A stretch of DNA of 64,000 nucleotides from Candidatus Altimarinota bacterium. GTDB taxonomy: Bacteria > Patescibacteriota > Gracilibacteria > BD1-5 > UBA2023. The position numbers were made by a program, and so were the translations under genes. Positions 1,816 to 48,334 of this stretch are shown in pieces. Each line of letters starts with the position of its first letter. The first letter of the stretch is position 1. Location of the stretch: the NCBI GenBank assembly GCA_014377305.1, contig JACMPW010000015.1, positions 1 to 64,000 on the forward strand, in the 5' to 3' direction. Below the pieces are notes generated by a model. It was not told the origin of the DNA, did not search any database, and worked only from the letters and a program-made list of their open reading frames with translations.

Positions 1816-2709
1816 TTAGATAGAGAGCATCTCTATAATCTCCCCTTCACTTTTCCCTGCCTTTTTCCACATCTTCGGGATGAATGATCCACTCGTGAAT
1901 CCTGGAATCGTATTGACCTCGAGAAAATAGAACTCTCGTCCATCATATCGCCAGTCTATACGTACAACTCACCGAGTTCCGATATATTTACATATTAGGA
2001 GACTCTCACTTGAGAGTCTTTTTTGGAGATCATCTTCTCACTCCATCCAGACCTCGTTAGAGCCATCAGTTTCATATTTTTCCTCGTAGTCAAAGAAGTC
2101 ATTTTTTAGACTCATGATCTCCATGATAGGCAGGGTGTGATATCCAGTTCTGTCTCGATAAACTCCCACAGTGAACTCGCGTCACTCGATGCACTCTTGG
2201 ATCAGGATATCATCATCCGAGATCGTTGCTTGAGTTCCGATCAGCTCACTGCGATCATCTACCTTGGTCGCCCCGATCGAGCTCCCTCACTTATTCGGTT
2301 TGGTGATCACTGGATAGCATACGAGAGGAGACTCGAGTATCTGGATACGCTGACCTCTCTGGAGGTAGAGAGATCTGGGTACCTTGACTCCGAGATTGAC
2401 AACGACTTGGTTGGTCAGATGCTTGTCGATACAGAGAGCATGTACGGTTGCATCTGAGGAGGCATATCAGCAACCGAGAGTCGCGAGAAATGCAGTTATT
2501 TGTCCGTCTTCACCATAGATCCCGTGGAGTACTGGGATCACGAGATCGTAGGTATCGTATTTTGAAAGAAAATCAGGTATATCAGTAGGGAAGTCGTAGA
2601 TATCACTCGTGTGTCCTGCAGTCGTGACCCAATCTTGCATATTGGCCCCGCTCCGGAGTGCGACAGCTCGTTCGGTGGAGATCCCTCAGGTGATGATAGC
2701 GATATTCAT
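1816..2709 (-). CDS. ddl: D-alanine--D-alanine ligase
   Basis: ATP-grasp ligase that makes D-Ala-D-Ala for peptidoglycan precursors in the cytoplasm. Reads as 297 residues once TGA is Gly. Visible family features are the N-terminal 'ITGGISTERAVALRSG', 'PVLHGIYGEDG' near residue 60, 'DKHLTNQV' near 90, and the C-terminal substrate-binding 'VNTIPGFTSGSFIPKMW'. The first Gly of 'GGIS' is a TGA. Stop TAA at 1816. Its own promoter lies directly upstream. The presence of Ddl says the cell retains peptidoglycan. Confidence 0.92.
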
Positions 2710-2730
2710 AACTTCAAAAAAAGAATAGTG

Positions 2731-2758
2731 AGTATATAAAAAAACTTGCAAAAATCAA
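2731..2758 (-). promoter_or_regulatory. ddl promoter
   Basis: -35 TTGATT (2753-2758), 16-bp spacer, -10 TATACT (2731-2736) on the minus strand. The spacer TTTGCAAGTTTTTTTA repeats that of rimO. The gene at 2802 starts divergently, so this is a two-way promoter region. Confidence 0.6.
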
Positions 2759-2801
2759 CCACTCTTATACTCTCTCATGAGTATATGTGAGCTCCATATT
2801 T

Positions 2802-15709: not shown

Positions 15710-16780
15710 ATGTTCCCATCTCTCAATTCATCGATATCACTCGCTGATAAGATACTCTTCTATGAGTCTATATCAAATCTTCTCGAATGAGGTATTACGC
15801 TCCTTGCGAGTTTCAAGTGACTCCTTTCTCGGACTCATCCAGGTGCCCTCCATGATACCCTTGAGAATACGATATTTTTTATTGAGAGTGGAGATAGCCT
15901 CAATATTGCGATGAGAAAGTTCCCAGACTTCTATACGCAAAAAGAAATCGCAATAGTCGAGAGTGGAGAACAAACTGGTATGCTCAAGGATGCATTTATG
16001 GCGATCGCATCGGAGCTCCGTATGCAAGAAGACCTCAGACGTAAGGTGATTGGGGCACTCACATATCCACTAGTGATTATGTTTTTTCTCGTGCTCGCAC
16101 TCACGGTCGTGATGATGTATGTTGTTCCACAGATTATGCCGATCATCGCTGAAATGACAACTGAGATATCACTCTCTACACGGTCACTCATATGGGTGAG
16201 CAACTTTCTCAGACACAATATCGTATTTATTATCATTGTTCTCATTGCTCTTGTTTTGATTTTTCGTGGCTATACAGTCACAGATATTGGCAAGAGGTGG
16301 CTCGATAGAGTCAAGCTCTATACGCCTATCACAGGTACAATCTACAAGAACTATATCGTTGTGCAGGTGATGTCAACATTTCACCTCCTATCATCCTCTG
16401 GAGTCTCGATCGTGAAGGCTCTGCGTCTCACTGGTGCATCAGCTGGTAACTCAACGATAGCTGATATGTACTCCTATATCGCCGACGAGGTATCAAAATG
16501 AAAGAAAATCAGTGAAGCCATGTTCGAGGTAGATAAGGAGGGATATGTATTTTCATCGGATATCATCCAGATGATCGAGAGTGCAGAGAAGACGTCGACC
16601 GTACATCAGATCTCCAAAAAAATAGCCGAGCAATATCGCCGCGAGGTTGATGCATCACTCGCCGTGATGGTGAAGCTGATTGAGCCGATCGCACTCCTCA
16701 TGGCCTGAGTATTCGTGATGTGGTTTGCGATTGCTATATTCTCATCAATCATGCAGGTAGTCGGAGTGGCAGGGAACTAA
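15710..16780 (+). CDS. pilC: Type IV pilus inner-membrane platform protein PilC/GspF
   Basis: 356 residues. Two copies of the T2SSF domain: the first with 'LLASFKGLLSRTHPGALHDTLENTIFF' and 'IVESGEQTGMLKDAF', the second with 'YKNYIVVQVMSTFHLLSSSGVSIVKALRL' and 'DIIQMIESAEKTSTV'. Membrane helices are near 125-150, 165-190 and 325-350. Four TGA codons are Gly, at positions where the family has Gly ('LLEGGITLLASFKG', 'SKGKKISEA'). No PilB or PilT ATPase is in the window. Confidence 0.9.
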
Positions 16781-16787
16781 CCATACT

Positions 16788-17357
16788 ATGATTTTCAAAA
16801 ATACTACATCAGGATTCACTCTCGTTGAGATGATGATAGTAATCTCTATCATCGTTATCCTCCTCGGTATTGCTATGTTCCCGTACAGGTACTATATGCA
16901 GAGAGGTTATACAGAGCGAGCAGCCGATGGGATTGCTCAAGAGTGGGTACTTGCACATAGGACAATCAGATGAGGACTCGAGTTTGATCCGATTGTAGGT
17001 CGCCACGCTCGTTTGTTTTTTGTATTCCAGACTGGATCATCTACTGTCGAGAGTTATCTCCTCTCAGGATCTACTCTGCCTGATATCGCAAATATATCTA
17101 CTGATACTAATCTCGTACAAAAATACAAAACCCTCATACTCGATGATGGAGTAGAGATTCTTGGTTTTACGGGTTCTCTTTCGGGGAGTGGGGACCGAGT
17201 CTGATATATGATATCACCTCCATATGGAGATGGAGTATTTTTTACATCGACTGCATCGTGATATTTCTCTGATGCTCGTATTATTGTTTGATATCCAGGT
17301 GCTGATACCACTACAGGTAGAGCCAGAGAGGTACTATTGCGGACATATCTGAGGTAG
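16788..17357 (+). CDS. Type IV pilin-like protein (pseudopilin 1)
   Basis: 189 residues with a canonical prepilin start 'TTSGFTLVEMMIVISIIVILLG': prepilin peptidase cuts after Gly9, leaving Phe+1 and Glu+5. Starts 8 nt after pilC. Four TGA codons are Gly. Stop TAG. Confidence 0.85.
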
Positions 17358-17402: not shown

Positions 17403-18077
17403 ATGATCATCCGCCCTACTACATCAGGATTCACTCTCATCGAGCTCATCGTCGGTATGACGATATTCTCGATCGGGCTCGCAGGGATCTATGCACTCCT
17501 CCAAACGACGATGTCGAGCGTGAGATACTCACAAGATGAGATCATCGTATCAGGACTCCTCCGAGAACAGATGGATCTCGTCAACAATATCCGAGATACC
17601 AACCTGCGGAACTATATTCCATGGGATTCTGTGCTCATATCTGCATCGAATTGATCTATGAGTTCTACTATCCTCATGGGAGCTGTCTATACTATAGAGA
17701 ATAGTTTTTCCGCTTCAGGACTCACCTTTGACCCAATACTCAATGATGGGACGATAGTAAAAAGTCCGATCAGACTCACAAAAATCGACCCGACTACTTC
17801 ATTCGCAACTGATCTAGAAAAATGGAATAAGACACAGCTCATACTCGACGATCATGGAAGATATATCCATACTGGATCAACTACTGGAGCTCCCACACAA
17901 TTTGCATCCTATATCATCGTCTCGCCACTCGGATATACTGGATCTACCTGATTCACTGAAGTGCGAAAAGATCAGAAAAATCAATGATGGATCATTGATG
18001 CTCGTGTCCTCGTCAAGTACAATGGAGGATATCGTGAGTATGATGCAAAGAGTATGATCACTGATTGGCAAAAATAA
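17403..18077 (+). CDS. Type IV pilin-like protein (pseudopilin 2)
   Basis: 224 residues. Prepilin start 'TTSGFTLIELIVGMTIFSIGLAG', with cleavage after Gly9 and Glu at +5. The rest is soluble with several TGA-coded Gly. Resembles minor pilins of the PilV/PilW type by position. Confidence 0.85.
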
Positions 18078-18093
18078 AACCCCCATTTCTCTT

Positions 18094-18756
18094 ATGCGAT
18101 TTTTCTCCAAGTCTTCATCCTGATTCACCCTTGTCGAGCTCATGATTGCTATGACTATTTTTGGTATGATGAGTGTTATGGTTATGACGATATATTTTTC
18201 TACGACGAATACTACGAGAAAACTCAATGCAGAACGTCAACTGGCTGAGTCAGCCCGTGAGATCGTCGAGCGGATATCGGAAGACGTACGAGAACACTGA
18301 TTCTCTGGTTCAGCCACATCATTTGACATCAACTATGACCTCTGGAGATCATATGACTATAGCGGGTCGGGGAGTGAGTACCTCAATCTGAATAATGGAC
18401 GATATGTATATGGAAAAAAAAATACTACTGGAATAATTCCATGTATCGATACACCTCTCGAGCAAACAAAAACAGATCCTCGAATTCACTGTGGACTATA
18501 TCTCATCGATTATGCCGATAATGGACTATCTAGCTATAATCTCGTCGATAGTTTCACTCCTCTAGAAAGTCGTAAGCGAGTCAAGGTATCGAATCTCAAA
18601 TTCTATATATCAGGTGATGGAATGAGCACGGCTCATAAAGTATTGCTTTCAATGGATCTTACACTCATCCCGATGAGTGGCTTATCTACGACATTCGTAT
18701 CCAATACTTCACTTCATATCCAGACGACTCTCTCTGAACGGGGATGGAAAAAATAA
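18094..18756 (+). CDS. Type IV pilin-like protein (pseudopilin 3); TGA at the cleavage Gly
   Basis: 220 residues. Reads 'SSSGFTLVELMIAMTIFGMM'; the Gly before Phe+1 is TGA (TCC TGA TTC ACC). Prepilin peptidase needs Gly at -1, so this position is strong evidence for UGA=Gly. Other TGA codons follow in 'EHGFSG' and elsewhere. Starts 17 nt after the previous gene. Confidence 0.85.
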
Positions 18757-18762
18757 AAATCT

Positions 18763-19698
18763 ATGAAAACCAAAATAATAAACTCATCAGGATTCTCTAT
18801 TCTCATGGCAATCGGTACTACTTGAGTACTCTTGATTCTTGTGACATCTCTTGCGATCAGCTATATCCGTGAGTCCAGGCTCTCACGATATTCCTATGAT
18901 GAGGTGATTGCCTCTACTGCGGCTGAGGGAGAGTTTGAGTATGCTATGCTCAAGGTACGTAATCATAGGGATGGATTCCAAGATACAACATTCTCAGGTG
19001 AACTCGATGGCAATCTTCTCGATCTCTCGACACCCAGATCCGTATGACTCCATAGTCAATATCAGATATCGGCTGCGAGCACTGCTCAGATATTTACTCT
19101 TTCGGGACAACAACATCTCATAGTTCCTCTGTTTGTAGGCACTGGGACTATACTCTCTGGATTTTCCAAAAATCCAAATTATGAAACAGGAGTAGACAAT
19201 ACGAGAGGACTCAATATATCTGGCATATCAGGACTCTCATGGGCTATAACTGCTATGAGCGGATCCGAGAGTATAGCGATCACTGGAGTTGGAGATATAG
19301 GTGATACTACCCTATGAAAAATCAGGGTCAAGGCGATACAGTGTTATGATGAAAATGGTATACTTGGTCTACATCCCACAGATCTGGATAGTCTCGGGAA
19401 TTGTACTGGAGTATATAGTGATTCTCAGTCATGAGAGACTGTCGCATATTCCTATGATGTGACTGAGTCTATTTCCCTATTTCTTTCGACAAAAATAGAT
19501 CCATATTTCATCATCTATAATGCAGATAATATGGCTCATGATATCACATTTTCATCTACTACTCCGTTTGCATTACCAACTCTCATACTCAGGGCAACTG
19601 CGAGCAAGTGAGAGAGTTCTCAGGTATTCCAGTTCGTTGAGGACAAGGGTAAGTATTATGATGCACTCAAATATGGAGTATACAATACAGGACCATAA
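18763..19698 (+). CDS. PilX-like minor pseudopilin
   Basis: 311 residues. N-terminus 'NSSGFSILMAIGTTGVLLILVTSLAISYI' has the Gly|Phe prepilin site but lacks Glu+5, as PilX/GspK-type tip pilins do. 'EFEYAMLKVRNHRDGF' follows the helix. Soluble domain unrecognised. It starts 6 nt after the previous stop. Confidence 0.78.
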
Positions 19699-19774: not shown

Positions 19775-21745
19775 ATGTTCTCTCTCCAATTCAGATATTT
19801 CCTCTATGGAGCTATCCTCTCAACATCACTCATTTCTCTCTCTGTTCAGGCCGGAACCAATGATGGTGTATTCGGTGACTACTTCACTCGTATTATAGGT
19901 GGCTGCCCTTCCAATACTGTTATCACAGGATTTGACTCAACATCCTCTACCTATGGAACACGCCAGTGTAGCTCTCTGCAGTCACTCCTTGGTACTCTAT
20001 TTGGTTCGAGTATTGCACCAGATTGACAGGCGATGATCGGATTCAATCCGGATGGTAGTCCCATGTATGGAGATATAAACTGGAAAAAAACGGCTTCAAA
20101 TATCTCTTATACAGGAGGCAATGTAGGTATCGGTACCTCTGCACCATCTGCCAAGCTGGATGTAGTAGGAGGAGACGCTAAAATCAATAGTATAACTGTA
20201 GGACGAGGAGGAGGGAATATTCCTAACAACACCGCAAATGGATTAAATGCACTTTATTACAACACTACCGGAGATTACAACACCGCCAATGGAGTAAATG
20301 CCCTCCAATTCAACACCACCGGACTTTTAAATACAGCCAATGGATTTCAAGCCCTCCAATACAATACCACTGGACAAGGCAATACCGCCAATGGATTAAT
20401 GTCTCTCGCCTCCAACACCACCGGATCCTACAACACCGCCAATGGAAATGGTGCCCTCCTCTCCAATACCACCGGATATTACAACACCGCCAATGGAGTA
20501 AATGCCCTTTACTCCAATACCACCGGAATCTACAACACAGCCAATTGAACAAATGCCCTCTTCAGCAACACCACCGGAAATTACAATACTGCCAATTGAC
20601 TATTTGCTCTCTACTCCAATACCATTGGAAGTCAAAACACCGCCAATGGAGTACACGCCCTTCAATTTAACACTACCGGAAATTTCAATACCGCCAATGG
20701 ATTATATGCTCTTTACCTCAATACCACAGGAAATTATAACACTGCTAATGGATCACAAGCCCTTCGATCTAACACCACCGGATACTATAATACCGCCAAT
20801 GGATTAGATTCTCTTCGAGACAACACTACCGGATACAAAAATACCGCTAATGGAGTTGCTACTCTCCTTTTTAACACTACCGGATATAATAATACCGCAA
20901 ATGGAATAAATGCTCTATATTATAATACTACAGGATTTGAGAACACTGCCAATGGATCACAAGCCCTTAGCAACAACACCACCGGAAACAACAACACTGC
21001 CAACGGAATGGGTGCTCTCCTTAGCAACACCACTGGAATTAAAAACACTGCGATGGGAGGTTATGCTATGGCATTGAATACCGATGGATCTAACAATACC
21101 GCCATTGGAATGAATGCTCTTTTCGGTAACACCAGCGGATACAACAACACCGCCAATGGAGTAAATGCCCTCCAATTCAACACCACCGGATCCAACAATA
21201 CGGCTATATGATTTGGTGCTCAGGTCTCAGGTGGTACTGCGTCTAATCAAGTACAAATAGGAAATACTGCTGTTACTTACGCAGGTATTCAAGTAGGTTG
21301 GTCGACTACCTCGGATATCCGTTGGAAAGATCAAGTTAGAGATCTCCCATATGGACTCTCTTTTCTCCGAGATCTCCGACCCGTAGATTATATCCGCAAG
21401 AATAATGATAAGCATACTCGAGAAACAGGATTCATAGCTCAAGAGGTTGAACAAACCCTCAAAAAATACAAATATGATGACCAAGGCTTCCTCACCAAAT
21501 CTGATACTGGGTATCTTGAGCTTCGTTATAACGACTTCATCGCTATGATCGTGCGAGGAGTACAAGAAATAGCTGACACTCTCGAGAGTGTCACTAATCG
21601 AGTAAATACCAATGAGAGTGAGATTGCAGCTCTCAAAACATCTAATGAAACCCTCAAAACAGCCAACCAAAAACTCGAGTCAGCCAATACAGCTCTCTCA
21701 TCTCGTCTCGATGCTATCGAGGCTCAACTCAGTAAATATTTCTAA
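19775..21745 (+). CDS. Repeat adhesin with C-terminal peptidase-S74 chaperone domain
   Basis: 656 residues. Signal peptide (1-25, ending 'SVQAG'); a head with 'NVGIGTSAPSAKLDVVGG', a common tail-fibre/adhesin motif; 19 full 17-residue repeats (about 152-474, consensus NTANGxxALxxNTTGxx); an S74 intramolecular chaperone domain (about 509-610) with 'TTSDIRWKD', 'LRPVDYI' and 'GFIAQEVEQTLKKY'; and a C-terminal heptad coiled coil. S74 domains drive trimerisation of beta-helical fibres and then may cut themselves off. Units 7, 8 and 20 have TGA where all others have GGN. It follows the pilin genes, so a pilus-associated or cell-surface fibre is likely; a phage origin of the module is possible. Confidence 0.88.
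20228..21196 (+). repeat. Nineteen tandem 51-bp coding repeats
   Basis: Exact period of 51 nt (17 codons), beginning at AAC ACC GCA AAT GGA. Protein-level conservation is strongest at NTANG and NTTG. Units differ mainly at third bases and at four or five variable residues. Confidence 0.92.
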
Positions 21746-36540: not shown

Positions 36541-37251
36541 TTATTTTTGATTGTCATAGATCCCAAGTTGCATATTTGCTGGGAGTGCGATATCGATATA
36601 TTTCGGATAATCGAGATTGACGGCTTGCATAGTTTCTACGAATTCTACGAGTGTAGTGGTATCCTTGATTCGGGTGTTGTATGATTTTTCCTCTCATACT
36701 GTACTCATTGTCTGTCCAGTATAGTCATGCCCTGGATATATCTGAGCCGTATCAGGTAGTGTATAGATCTTGCTCTGGATCGAGTCATAGAGTCGCTCTG
36801 CAGATCCTCACTGGAAGTCTGTCCGTCCCGTCTTGCGGATGAGAAGAGTATCACCCGTGAATAACATATCTCAGATGAAGTAGCTCGTACATACGTCAGT
36901 ATGTCATGGTGTAGATATTGCTTTCACCCTGATATCGCCTACCGTGAATATCTCTCCATCTGCGAGCAGTATATCTGGTTTAGCTATATGAGCTCATTCT
37001 CACATCGCGATTTTGGCTCCAGTTTTTTGCCTAAGGAGTCCCGATCCAGTGATATGATCGGCATGGATATGGGTATCGAGAATATGGGTGAGTGTGATTC
37101 CGAACTCTGCGATCAACTTGAGGTCACGATCGATCTGATCGCGAACAGGGTCGATGATGAGAGCTTCTTGAGTCTCGCTATCTGCAAGGATGTAGGTATA
37201 TGTCCAGGACTTTTCATCGAAGAGCTGACGGAAGATAATATTTGAATTCAT
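36541..37251 (-). CDS. Persulfide dioxygenase-like MBL-fold hydrolase (ETHE1 type)
   Basis: 236 residues. Metal motif HIHADH at 61-66, a second ligand region 'VKAISTPGHTDVCTSYFI', and 'GDTLLIRKTGRTDFQGG' and 'YPGHDYTGQTMSTV', which are typical of ETHE1/Sdo persulfide dioxygenases rather than glyoxalase II. The enzyme oxidises glutathione persulfide to sulfite. Neighbouring rhodanese, glutaredoxin and YeeE-like transporters support the call. TGA codons are Gly (MGENAH, FQGGSAE). Confidence 0.87.
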
Positions 37252-37258
37252 ATATATA

Positions 37259-37603
37259 TTAGTTGAAATAACTTGGATCGAACTCCGCCGTGATCTCGAT
37301 GATATCTGATTGATCTCGATAAAGTGCTTCGATGCTACCGGCGACATTTGTTGCCGTTTTTCATTCTCACTCGAGCCATTGACAAACTTGTCCGCTGCGT
37401 GATCATGACCGACAGAATATATAGATAGGTTTGTTAAAATCGATATCTCAGATACGGAATTCGATGGAGGAGAGGGGAATGAGTTTGGCTCCGGGGATGC
37501 GGATCTGATCCCATTCTTTTTTCTCACGAACATCGATGAGCTCGATATCGGCGTGATTGTGCGTGAGGATCTCGAGTTCTTTTGAGGATATTTCTTTATA
37601 CAT
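37259..37603 (-). CDS. Single-domain rhodanese; TGA in the active-site loop
   Basis: 114 residues. Active-site Cys64 in 'FCRSGSRSGQ'; the Gly67 of this loop is TGA. 'IDVREKKEWDQIRIPGA' is the first conserved rhodanese motif. Transfers sulfane sulfur. Its ATG overlaps nothing but lies 2 nt from the YeeE-like stop, and its stop is 8 nt from the next ATG. Confidence 0.9.
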
Positions 37604-44006: not shown

Positions 44007-44081
44007 TGGCAGCCCCACTTGGAATCGAACCAAGATAAACGGCTTTGGAGACCGCTACACTAACCATTGTGCTATGGAGCT
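44007..44081 (-). tRNA. tRNA-Trp (CCA anticodon)
   Basis: 75 nt including an encoded 3' CCA. Acceptor stem AGCTCCA/TGGGGCT (one G-U), D arm with GGTTAGT loop, anticodon stem GCGGT/GCCGT... with loop CTCCAAA (anticodon CCA), and T arm CTTGG-TTCGATT-CCAAG. Anticodon CCA decodes UGG only, so UGA is not read as Trp by this tRNA. Confidence 0.95.
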
Positions 44082-44091
44082 ATAAACTAAA

Positions 44092-44235
44092 CTAGTGACT
44101 AGTTCAGTTATTTTGATTGAGACAATCACGAACTAATATACGAAATAACTCAAGGTATTTATCATAACTAATATCTCGATTATACATCTGTGATTCGAGT
44201 TCTTTGAACTCTACCTCAAACTGATTAGATAGCAT
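44092..44235 (-). CDS. Small acidic protein overlapping the end of tsf
   Basis: 47 residues, helical and charged ('FEVEFKELESQMYNRDISYDKYLELFRIL' region). Its ATG overlaps the tsf stop by 11 bases, suggesting translational coupling. One TGA is Gly; stop TAG. No family recognised. Confidence 0.5.
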
Positions 44236-45013
44236 ATCGATAAAATGCTATAATAGAATCTTTACCAATTACTTCACCCACTTTTTGATCTGGATTGACG
44301 ACGAATGGCTGAGTGAGGAGAGCGTTCTCTTCCCGGAACTTTGTCATCTTGCCATCTATAATTTTTTCGAGGATTTCTTTTGGTTTACTAGCATTTTTTG
44401 GATCTTGTTCCATGAGTGCGAGCTGGATCTCTTTTTCTTTTGCTACATCAGCATTAGATATATCTGATGGAGAGATAACCTGAGGAGCAGATGCGACGAC
44501 ATGCATGGCAACTTGCTTGAGTATATTAGTATCAGTACCAGCCTTTGCGACTACTACAGATCCATTCTTGTAGTTAGAGTGTACATATGAGGCTATGACG
44601 TCACCCTCGATCTTCGTGAGAGTGCGGATCTGCATATTTTCACCAACCTTGAGTGTATACTCTGATGCCTTGAGTTCTTCTGCCTTGGCAATTGCTGCCT
44701 CATCGGTTGTCTCACCTTTGCGGATAGTGATAAAATGATCGAGCATACCCTCAAATACATCATTGCGAGCAACGAAGTCTGTCTCACATGAAACGACCAC
44801 AACATATACTGCATTTCCGTCAGCAACGATTTTGATACGCCCCTCAGAGGTCTCGTTACCAGAACGTTTAGCAGCTTTTGAGAGTCCCTTTTTGCGGAGA
44901 AGGTCGATAGCTGTATCCATATTTCCATCTGCTTCGACGAGTGCATTCTTGCAGTCGGACATACCGACACCAGTTCGCTCGCGGAGTTCTTTGATCATCT
45001 GAGCTGTTACCAT
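44225..45013 (-). CDS. tsf: Elongation factor Ts
   Basis: 262 residues. 'KELRERTGVGMSDCKNALVEADGNMDTAIDLLRKKGL' (start region) and 'VVVSCETDFVARNDVF' are canonical. Catalyses GDP/GTP exchange on EF-Tu. Shares a strand with rpsB, but a membrane-protein gene sits between them. No TGA codons. Confidence 0.95.
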   Translation of the reverse strand: MVTAQMIKELRERTGVGMSDCKNALVEADGNMDTAIDLLRKKGLSKAAKRSGNETSEGRIKIVADGNAVYVVVVSCETDFVARNDVFEGMLDHFITIRKGETTDEAAIAKAEELKASEYTLKVGENMQIRTLTKIEGDVIASYVHSNYKNGSVVVAKAGTDTNILKQVAMHVVASAPQVISPSDISNADVAKEKEIQLALMEQDPKNASKPKEILEKIIDGKMTKFREENALLTQPFVVNPDQKVGEVIGKDSIIAFYRYAI

Positions 45014-45421: not shown

Positions 45422-46204
45422 CTAGAGAGTTGGTGCTATTACTTCTTTTTTAGCTATTGGAGTGCGTGGAGTTGTTGATTTTGGAGCGATAGTCTCGACT
45501 CGTGCCATAGGCTTTTTGTCTTCGACTTTCTTTGATTTAATAGCTGATTTGACTTCACCGAGCATCCATGCGATAGCTTTGATGGAGTTGACATTGCAAG
45601 GGACAAAATATGTCGACTTGTCGATATCACCAGTAGAACCGAGGAGAGCGATAGAAGTGATTCCTATCACCTTTGCCTCTGCGAGAGCGAGATCCTCATA
45701 GTGTCCGTCTACTACTACAACTACATCTGGAGTTCGTTTCATATCCTTGACACCAACATAGGCTTCCTTGAGTTTGATGAGCTCATTGAGTTTGATTGCT
45801 TTTTCTTTTTTTGTGAGATTCTCGAGCATACCGTTCGCGAGTGATGTCTCGAGTTCGTTGTAGTATGCAATTCGTTTTTTGATCGTTGTATAGTTGGTAA
45901 GGAGACCTGGAACCCACTTCGTATTGACATAAAAATGTCCAGTAGAAGTAGCGATAGCCTCAACGAGATCCTTTGATTGGACTTTTGTACCAACAAAAAG
46001 GATAGATTTCCCCTTTGATGAGAGATCTTCGAGAACTACCTTAACTTCTTCGAGTTTCTCAGCTGTTTTGTAAAGATTGAATACATGGACACCATTCTGG
46101 ATACCATATATATAATCACGCATCTTCGGAGACCAGTATTCACGCTTGTGTCCGATGTGGACAGCGTTGTCGAGCATACTCTGTATGAGTGTAGCGGTAG
46201 CCAT
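45422..46204 (-). CDS. rpsB: 30S ribosomal protein S2
   Basis: 260 residues. 'MLDNAVHIGHKREYWSPKMRDYIYGIQNGVHVFNL' region, 'FVGTKVQSKDLVEAIA', 'WVPGLLTNYTTIKKRI', and 'PDVVVVVDGHYEDLALAEAKVIGI' are diagnostic. A basic, Pro/Thr-rich tail of about 35 residues follows the core. No TGA codon. A leader of about 130 nt precedes it (see 46205-46340). Confidence 0.95.
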   Translation of the reverse strand: MATATLIQSMLDNAVHIGHKREYWSPKMRDYIYGIQNGVHVFNLYKTAEKLEEVKVVLEDLSSKGKSILFVGTKVQSKDLVEAIATSTGHFYVNTKWVPGLLTNYTTIKKRIAYYNELETSLANGMLENLTKKEKAIKLNELIKLKEAYVGVKDMKRTPDVVVVVDGHYEDLALAEAKVIGITSIALLGSTGDIDKSTYFVPCNVNSIKAIAWMLGEVKSAIKSKKVEDKKPMARVETIAPKSTTPRTPIAKKEVIAPTL

Positions 46205-46891: not shown

Positions 46892-48334
46892 ATGACCAAT
46901 CCAGCTGACAAATACGAGATCGTCATGGGTCTTGAGACTCATGTCCGAATCAAATCCAATACCAAGATGTTTTGTTCGTGTGCGAATGCCCTCGAGCTCG
47001 CGAGTGAGCCAAACATCAATGTATGTCCCGTATGTATGGGATTCCCTGGGATGTTACCGACAGTATCTGCCGGTGTCATCGATCTCGCAGTCCGAGCATC
47101 ACACGCACTGAGATCTACAGTAGCAGAGACGAGTGTATTCGACCGCAAGAGCTACTTCTATCCAGATCTCCCGATGGGATATCAGATCACTCAGCTCTAC
47201 GAGCCCATAGCAGATGGAGGCGAGGTCAGAGCCCTGATCGATTGAGAACTCAGGACTTTTCGTATCCATCATATGCATATCGAGAACGATGCGGGCAAGC
47301 TCGTCCATGCAGGGTGAAAAACACTAGTAGACTACAATCGTGCAGGTTCACCACTCATGGAGATCGTGACACAACCAGACTTTCGCTCCAAGGCAGATGT
47401 CCTCGGATACCTCGAGGAACTCCAGAAACTGATGCGATGGTGTGGTGCGTCTGATGCTGATATGGAGAAGTGACAACTGAGATGTGATGTGAATATATCT
47501 ATCAGGATCAAATGAGAAACAGAACTCCGTAATCGAGTAGAGCTGAAGAACGTCAACGGATTCGCCTCTATCGGTCGTGCTATCGATGTCGAGTTCGCTC
47601 GCCAGATCGAGATATATGAGGCAGGTGGATCGATAGATCAGGAGACTCGTGGCTGGAGCGATGAGCGAGGAGTCTCTACTCCGATGCGATCCAAGGAAGA
47701 TGCTATGGACTATCGATACTTCCCAGATCCTGATCTCCCACCACTCACTCTCACACCTGAGTTCATCACGACCCGCGAGATCGGAGATCTGCCGATGGAT
47801 CGTAGGCTCAAATATCTGAATGAATATAAACTCATCGAGGATGATGCTCGTATATTATCTGAAGACCTGATAATAAGTAATTTTTATGAGGAACTCGTAT
47901 CTATAACAAAAGATCCGAAAAAATCTTGTTCGTACATCACGACGATACTATTTGCTCTATTCGAGGCACACGTGACTCGTCTGAATCTCTCAGATATCAA
48001 GTCTGAAACCCGAGAAATTGCCCGAGTCATCGAGCTCGTGAATGCAGATGAACTCTCATCGACGAATAGTAAGATAGTGATCGAAAAATTGGTTTTCGAA
48101 TGATGAAAAGCAGATGAATGGGTTGACTCACTCTCACTCCGCCAGACCAATGATACAGGAGCACTCGAGGCTATCGCGGATGCTGTCATCGCAGAGTCAC
48201 AGACACAACTCGCAGAGTATAAAAACTGAAAAGTGAACCTATTCGGATTCTTCGTAGGGCAATGTATGAAAAAATCAGCCGGGCAAGGTAATCCAAAGAT
48301 ATTCACAGAAATTCTCAAAAAAAAACTCTCCTAA
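46892..48334 (+). CDS. gatB: Aspartyl/glutamyl-tRNA amidotransferase subunit B
   Basis: 480 residues. '[13 protein letters not shown]', '[12 protein letters not shown]', '[16 protein letters not shown]', '[16 protein letters not shown]' and '[13 protein letters not shown]' are diagnostic. Converts Glu-tRNA-Gln to Gln-tRNA-Gln with GatA/C, which are not in the window. ATG 46892 gives the usual N-terminus; an in-frame TTG at 46847 would add 15 residues. TGA codons are Gly at conserved places (IDGELRTF, HAGGKTLV). Confidence 0.93.

Follow-up and report, generated by a model that had tools for sequence, protein, structure and literature searches.

UGA is almost certainly read as glycine at the cleavage site of a type IV prepilin-like protein in a gracilibacterium with genetic code 25

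The prepilin 3 gene in the window (the whole stretch of 64,000 nucleotides analysed here) carries an in-frame TGA in place of a standard codon for the glycine that immediately precedes the cleavage site, Gly(-1), and glycine is the correct reading of this UGA. We are nearly certain that the window comes from a member of the Gracilibacteria (Patescibacteria) that translates its genes with genetic code 25, in which UGA is an ordinary glycine sense codon. This meaning of UGA has been known since 2013-2014: its description for BD1-5/Gracilibacteria and SR1 dates from 2013, and proteomics confirmed it in 2014, when the peptides of a BD1-5 relative gave 97 UGA-Gly versus 3 UGA-Trp (PMC4032931). Code 25 of the Gracilibacteria and Absconditabacteria is cited in PMC8629427 and PMC6851277, the latter also noting the loss of RF2 in BD1-5, and the class-wide reassignment was noted again in 2026 (PMC13092985). 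The closest named relatives of the GatB protein from the window (85, 73 and 71% identity) are all Candidatus Gracilibacteria. One functional residue is enough for a reader without tools to find the genetic code. Annotation of this genome needs table 25; with table 11, the majority of genes in the window, and of the pilin genes in the cluster, would come out as fragments.

From the ATG at 18094, prepilin 3 starts with the codons ATG CGA TTT TTC TCC AAG TCT TCA TCC TGA TTC ACC CTT GTC GAG, which gives the N-terminus M R F F S K S S S (TGA) F T L V E L M I A M. If TGA is a sense codon, the frame stays open until the TAA at 18754-18756, and translation with table 11 would yield a peptide of 9 residues. 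When TGA is taken as glycine, the product matches both Pfam N_methyl (PF07963; 32.3 bits, cut-off 21.2) and the NCBIfam model TIGR02532 'IV_pilin_GFxxxE' (25.5 bits, cut-off 16.3), and the cleavage and N-terminal methylation motif of type IV prepilins is thus present. The original prediction had placed a TGA on the glycine before the cleavage site of this protein, and the placement is exact (18121-18123, S-S-S-TGA-F-T-L-V-E in frame). Of the order's 76 genomes, 71 gave matches to prepilin 3, and its orthologues within the genus (54-67% identity) retain 2-6 in-frame TGAs. Prepilin 3 resembles other type IV prepilins and type II pseudopilins (PF07963, TIGR02532) in its short basic leader, the motif G/F-T-L-V-E and the hydrophobic helix, as well as in the PilC/GspF-like gene adjoining the prepilin cluster (Table 1). 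It differs from them in having UGA as its Gly(-1) codon, a position at which the orthologues have GGN, UGA or Ala codons.

Table 1. Positions of the features discussed in the text, numbered from the first letter of the window.
Feature	Position	Strand	Remarks
ddl (D-Ala-D-Ala ligase)	1816..2778	-	7 TGA; used in column test
PilC/GspF-type inner-membrane protein, T2SSF domain	15710..16780	+	Pfam T2SSF 134 bits; 4 TGA
Prepilin 1 (MIFKNTTSGFTLVE)	16788..17357	+	GGA at Gly(-1); 4 TGA elsewhere in frame
Prepilin 2 (MIIRPTTSGFTLIE)	17403..18077	+	GGA at Gly(-1)
Prepilin 3, type IV prepilin-like gene ('pseudopilin 3')	18094..18756	+	220 aa, 2 in-frame TGA; N_methyl and TIGR02532
TGA codon for Gly(-1), immediately ahead of the prepilin cleavage site	18121..18123	+	From sequence and frame
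Second in-frame TGA (Gly) of prepilin 3	18298..18300	+	From reading frame
Pilin-like ORF, SSGFSILMAIG, no E5	18763..19698	+	GGA at Gly(-1); 5 TGA
Metallo-beta-lactamase fold/persulfide dioxygenase-like protein	36541..37533	-	6 TGA; used in column test
tRNA-Trp(CCA), sole tRNA in the window	44007..44081	-	Reads UGG, not UGA
gatB	46892..48334	+	7 TGA; code test gene

With TAA and TAG as the only stops, a simple longest-ORF script, a few of whose calls may be spurious, counted 237 in-frame TGAs in the 18,251 codons of the ORFs called in the window. Most of the called ORFs contain in-frame TGA, among them the essential genes gatB, gltX, dnaB, ddl and that of RF1. We determined which residue UGA stands for by comparing seven proteins (Ddl, GatB, DnaB, the persulfide dioxygenase-like metallo-beta-lactamase protein, RsmI, GltX and, from contig 1, RF1) with their standard-code homologues in the PDB. 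An X stood in for each TGA to keep the comparison free of any presupposed residue, and the homologue residues were tabulated per codon. The TGA columns (29 columns, 69 residues) held Gly 38 times, Ala 6 times and Trp not once, against a Gly background of 7.0%, and Gly was the best residue for TGA, 25 log units ahead of the next. The control codons behaved as expected from the standard code, as GGA columns held Gly in 151 residues 92 times and TGG was best explained by Trp.

A second test compared GatB from the recoded side (24 sequences, namely that of the window and 23 others containing TGA, one of which is an Anaerolineae locus with a single TGA) with 55 sequences free of TGA, two of which are Gracilibacteria/Patescibacteria that happen to lack TGA in this gene. 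At columns that were at least 80% conserved in the 55 sequences, TGA fell on Gly 121 times, on Ala 15 times and on no other residue. For the TGA codons at aa 194 and 446 of the window's GatB, the column is Gly in 55/55 of the TGA-free sequences. The comparison of Gly and Trp in TGA columns that had been suggested as a check thus came out for Gly.

With regard to termination, the genome has a single class-I release factor (contig C1, 19142-20161), which is RF1-like as judged by its PET tripeptide, its best PDB matches (RF1) and its score with the prfB model, 251 bits where the cut-off is 370. This gene itself carries a TGA, at the Gly/Ala position of 'EVRA-TGA-VGGDEA'. RF2 (prfB) is absent from the genome. 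Across the order, RF2 was over the cut-off in one genome only (G058), and outside the order in nearly all genomes, the main exception there being family f13. The RF2 of G058 (L164, G058:C153) is full-length (508 bits) and occurs alongside an RF1 with 16 TGA, in a bin of 2.7 Mb and 500 contigs; its occurrence in a recoded order is likely due to contamination. Four genomes of family f13, which belongs to the same class (G086, G097, G106 and G115), have TGA inside RF1 and no RF2 over the cut-off, and none of them has a tRNA fitting the UCA pattern of the order. These four probably belong to the SR1/Absconditabacteria branch, in which the UCA tRNA would differ from that of the order.

A search of the tRNAs of two relatives located one with anticodon UCA, and the pattern derived from it was then matched against the genomes. 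It fitted 64/77 genomes of the order, among them two of four further congeners, versus 0/41 outside. An earlier pattern, TTCAA...GTTCRANTC, had been dropped since it gave mostly chance matches; the T arm of the real UCA tRNA has AACC, not ANTC. All 30 copies that were read (30/30) have G1:C72, C2:G71, G3:C70 and U73, which is the glycine identity rule applied in PMC8629427. In the window's own genome (16 contigs, 93% complete assembly) the tRNA was not found. An assembly gap is the likelier cause of this absence, because there is no Met or His tRNA among the 29 tRNAs detected in the assembly either, and the Elp3 gene, which lies beside the UCA tRNA in two congeners, is missing as well. The expectation that UGA is read as glycine is hence borne out by the Gly columns, the absence of RF2 and an order-wide tRNA(UCA) with glycine identity.

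The tRNA-Gly(UCA) of the order is unusual in being 79 nt long with an A-rich D loop, and most copies lack the GG pair (L141, L144, L134-L163). It reached only 42-46 bits against the tRNA model in the two genomes scored. ARAGORN labels it tRNA-SeC, and one copy taken in isolation gave no cloverleaf by folding energy. A gene for Elp3-type tRNA U34 modification adjoins it in 8/30 loci (L140, L141, L147, L138, L145, L136, L137 and L142). Such a modification could help to keep the UCA tRNA off UGG; Elp3 as a code-specific partner of this tRNA was dropped, as only 8/30 of the loci read have it.

Under code 25, RF2, the terminator at UGA, is gone and RF1 terminates at UAA and UAG. UGA would be decoded by a glycine-type tRNA with anticodon UCA, whose gene in this genome presumably lies in an assembly gap. 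The ribosome would then put glycine at codon 10 of prepilin 3, giving the leader ...SSSG/FTLVE, which prepilin peptidase would be expected to cut like those of the GGA-encoded neighbours. The features found agree with NCBI genetic code 25 (Candidate Division SR1 and Gracilibacteria) in UGA = Gly, the absence of RF2, the retention of RF1, the order-wide tRNA-Gly(UCA) and the Gracilibacteria lineage. We found no point of difference; the missing tRNA gene is most likely an assembly gap.

Several other readings of this codon were weighed. If TGA were a true stop, either prepilin 3 would be a pseudogene, or the TGA would be due to a sequencing error or serve as a switch with regulated readthrough, and under table 11 the ORF does end after 9 codons. 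However, in-frame TGA pervades most called ORFs, essential genes included, the pilin orthologues of the genus keep theirs at 54-67% identity, RF2 is missing, and both the PDB and the GatB columns speak against termination, which makes a stop extremely improbable. Loss of RF2 also goes with code 4 (PMC6851277), in which UGA means Trp as in Mycoplasma and a Trp would stand before the cleavage site. This is practically inconceivable given that Trp occupied 0/69 residues at the PDB columns and none of the conserved GatB columns, that the UCA tRNAs of the order bear glycine identity elements, and that no Trp codon occurs among the cleavage-position codons of the orthologues. The least credible of all is selenocysteine, a reading to which the anticodon UCA and the label given by ARAGORN point: SelB was over the cut-off in 0/76 genomes of the order, UGAs number in the hundreds per 64 kb and fall in Gly columns, and the acceptor arm of the UCA tRNA has the identity elements of glycine.

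The Absconditabacteria (SR1) code described in PMC8629427 shares UGA = Gly and adds CGA/CGG = Trp, and CGG = Trp has been predicted for some Gracilibacteria in the same work. For this genome it is highly improbable, as Arg was the best residue at both CGG (12/26) and CGA (37/76), Trp was not among the leading residues at either codon, and a tRNA-Arg(UCG) is present. The alignment columns accordingly point to plain code 25, with CGA and CGG remaining Arg. Tests with the columns, RF2 and SelB led to the rejection of code 4, code 11, a CGA/CGG reassignment of the SR1 type and selenocysteine alike.

Returning to the cleavage site of prepilin 3, of 29 readable homologues of the order, prepilin 3 included, 6 have TGA as the (-1) codon, 12 have GGN and 11 have GCN (Ala). 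TGA therefore swaps with Gly codons at prepilin (-1). The original prediction had called Gly(-1) obligatory; this does not hold strictly, since 11/29 have Ala. Because Ala is also accepted at this position, the cleavage column alone cannot separate Gly from Ala; unlike this single column, the genome-scale columns do so. A literature search for bacterial prepilin -1 mutants returned archaeal work only. The GGA at Gly(-1) predicted for the two adjoining pilins (16788 and 17403) was confirmed, and the pilin-like ORF at 18763 has it likewise.

TGA at Gly(-1) of prepilin 3 is what ordinary synonymous use predicts, and there is no sign that the site is special: TGA makes up 18.6% of the glycine codons in the window and its occurrence at Gly(-1) in 2/8 prepilins of the genome (prepilin 3 and one at C12:66135) matches chance, P(>=2) being 0.45. 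Conceivably, the unusual tRNA-Gly(UCA) of the order could decode UGA more slowly or under regulation, and UGA at the cleavage Gly would then tune pilin output. We regard this as very unlikely, and the statistics of codon usage at the pilin site lend it no support. Two ORFs named by eye, tsf-like (44225-45013) and rpsB-like (45422-46204), have 0 TGA among 16 and 14 glycine codons, respectively. This hints at a possible avoidance of UGA in highly expressed genes and would fit slower or regulated decoding.

The genes flanking prepilin 3 complete a pilin cluster. The protein encoded at 15710-16780 scored below the cut-offs of the GspF and PilC families themselves, and the pilin-like ORF downstream of prepilin 3 gave 0 matches in Pfam or NCBIfam. 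After the pilins comes an ORF (19775-21745) of 656 aa with short repeats of the NTTG..NTANG type, which is probably a surface or fibre-like protein.
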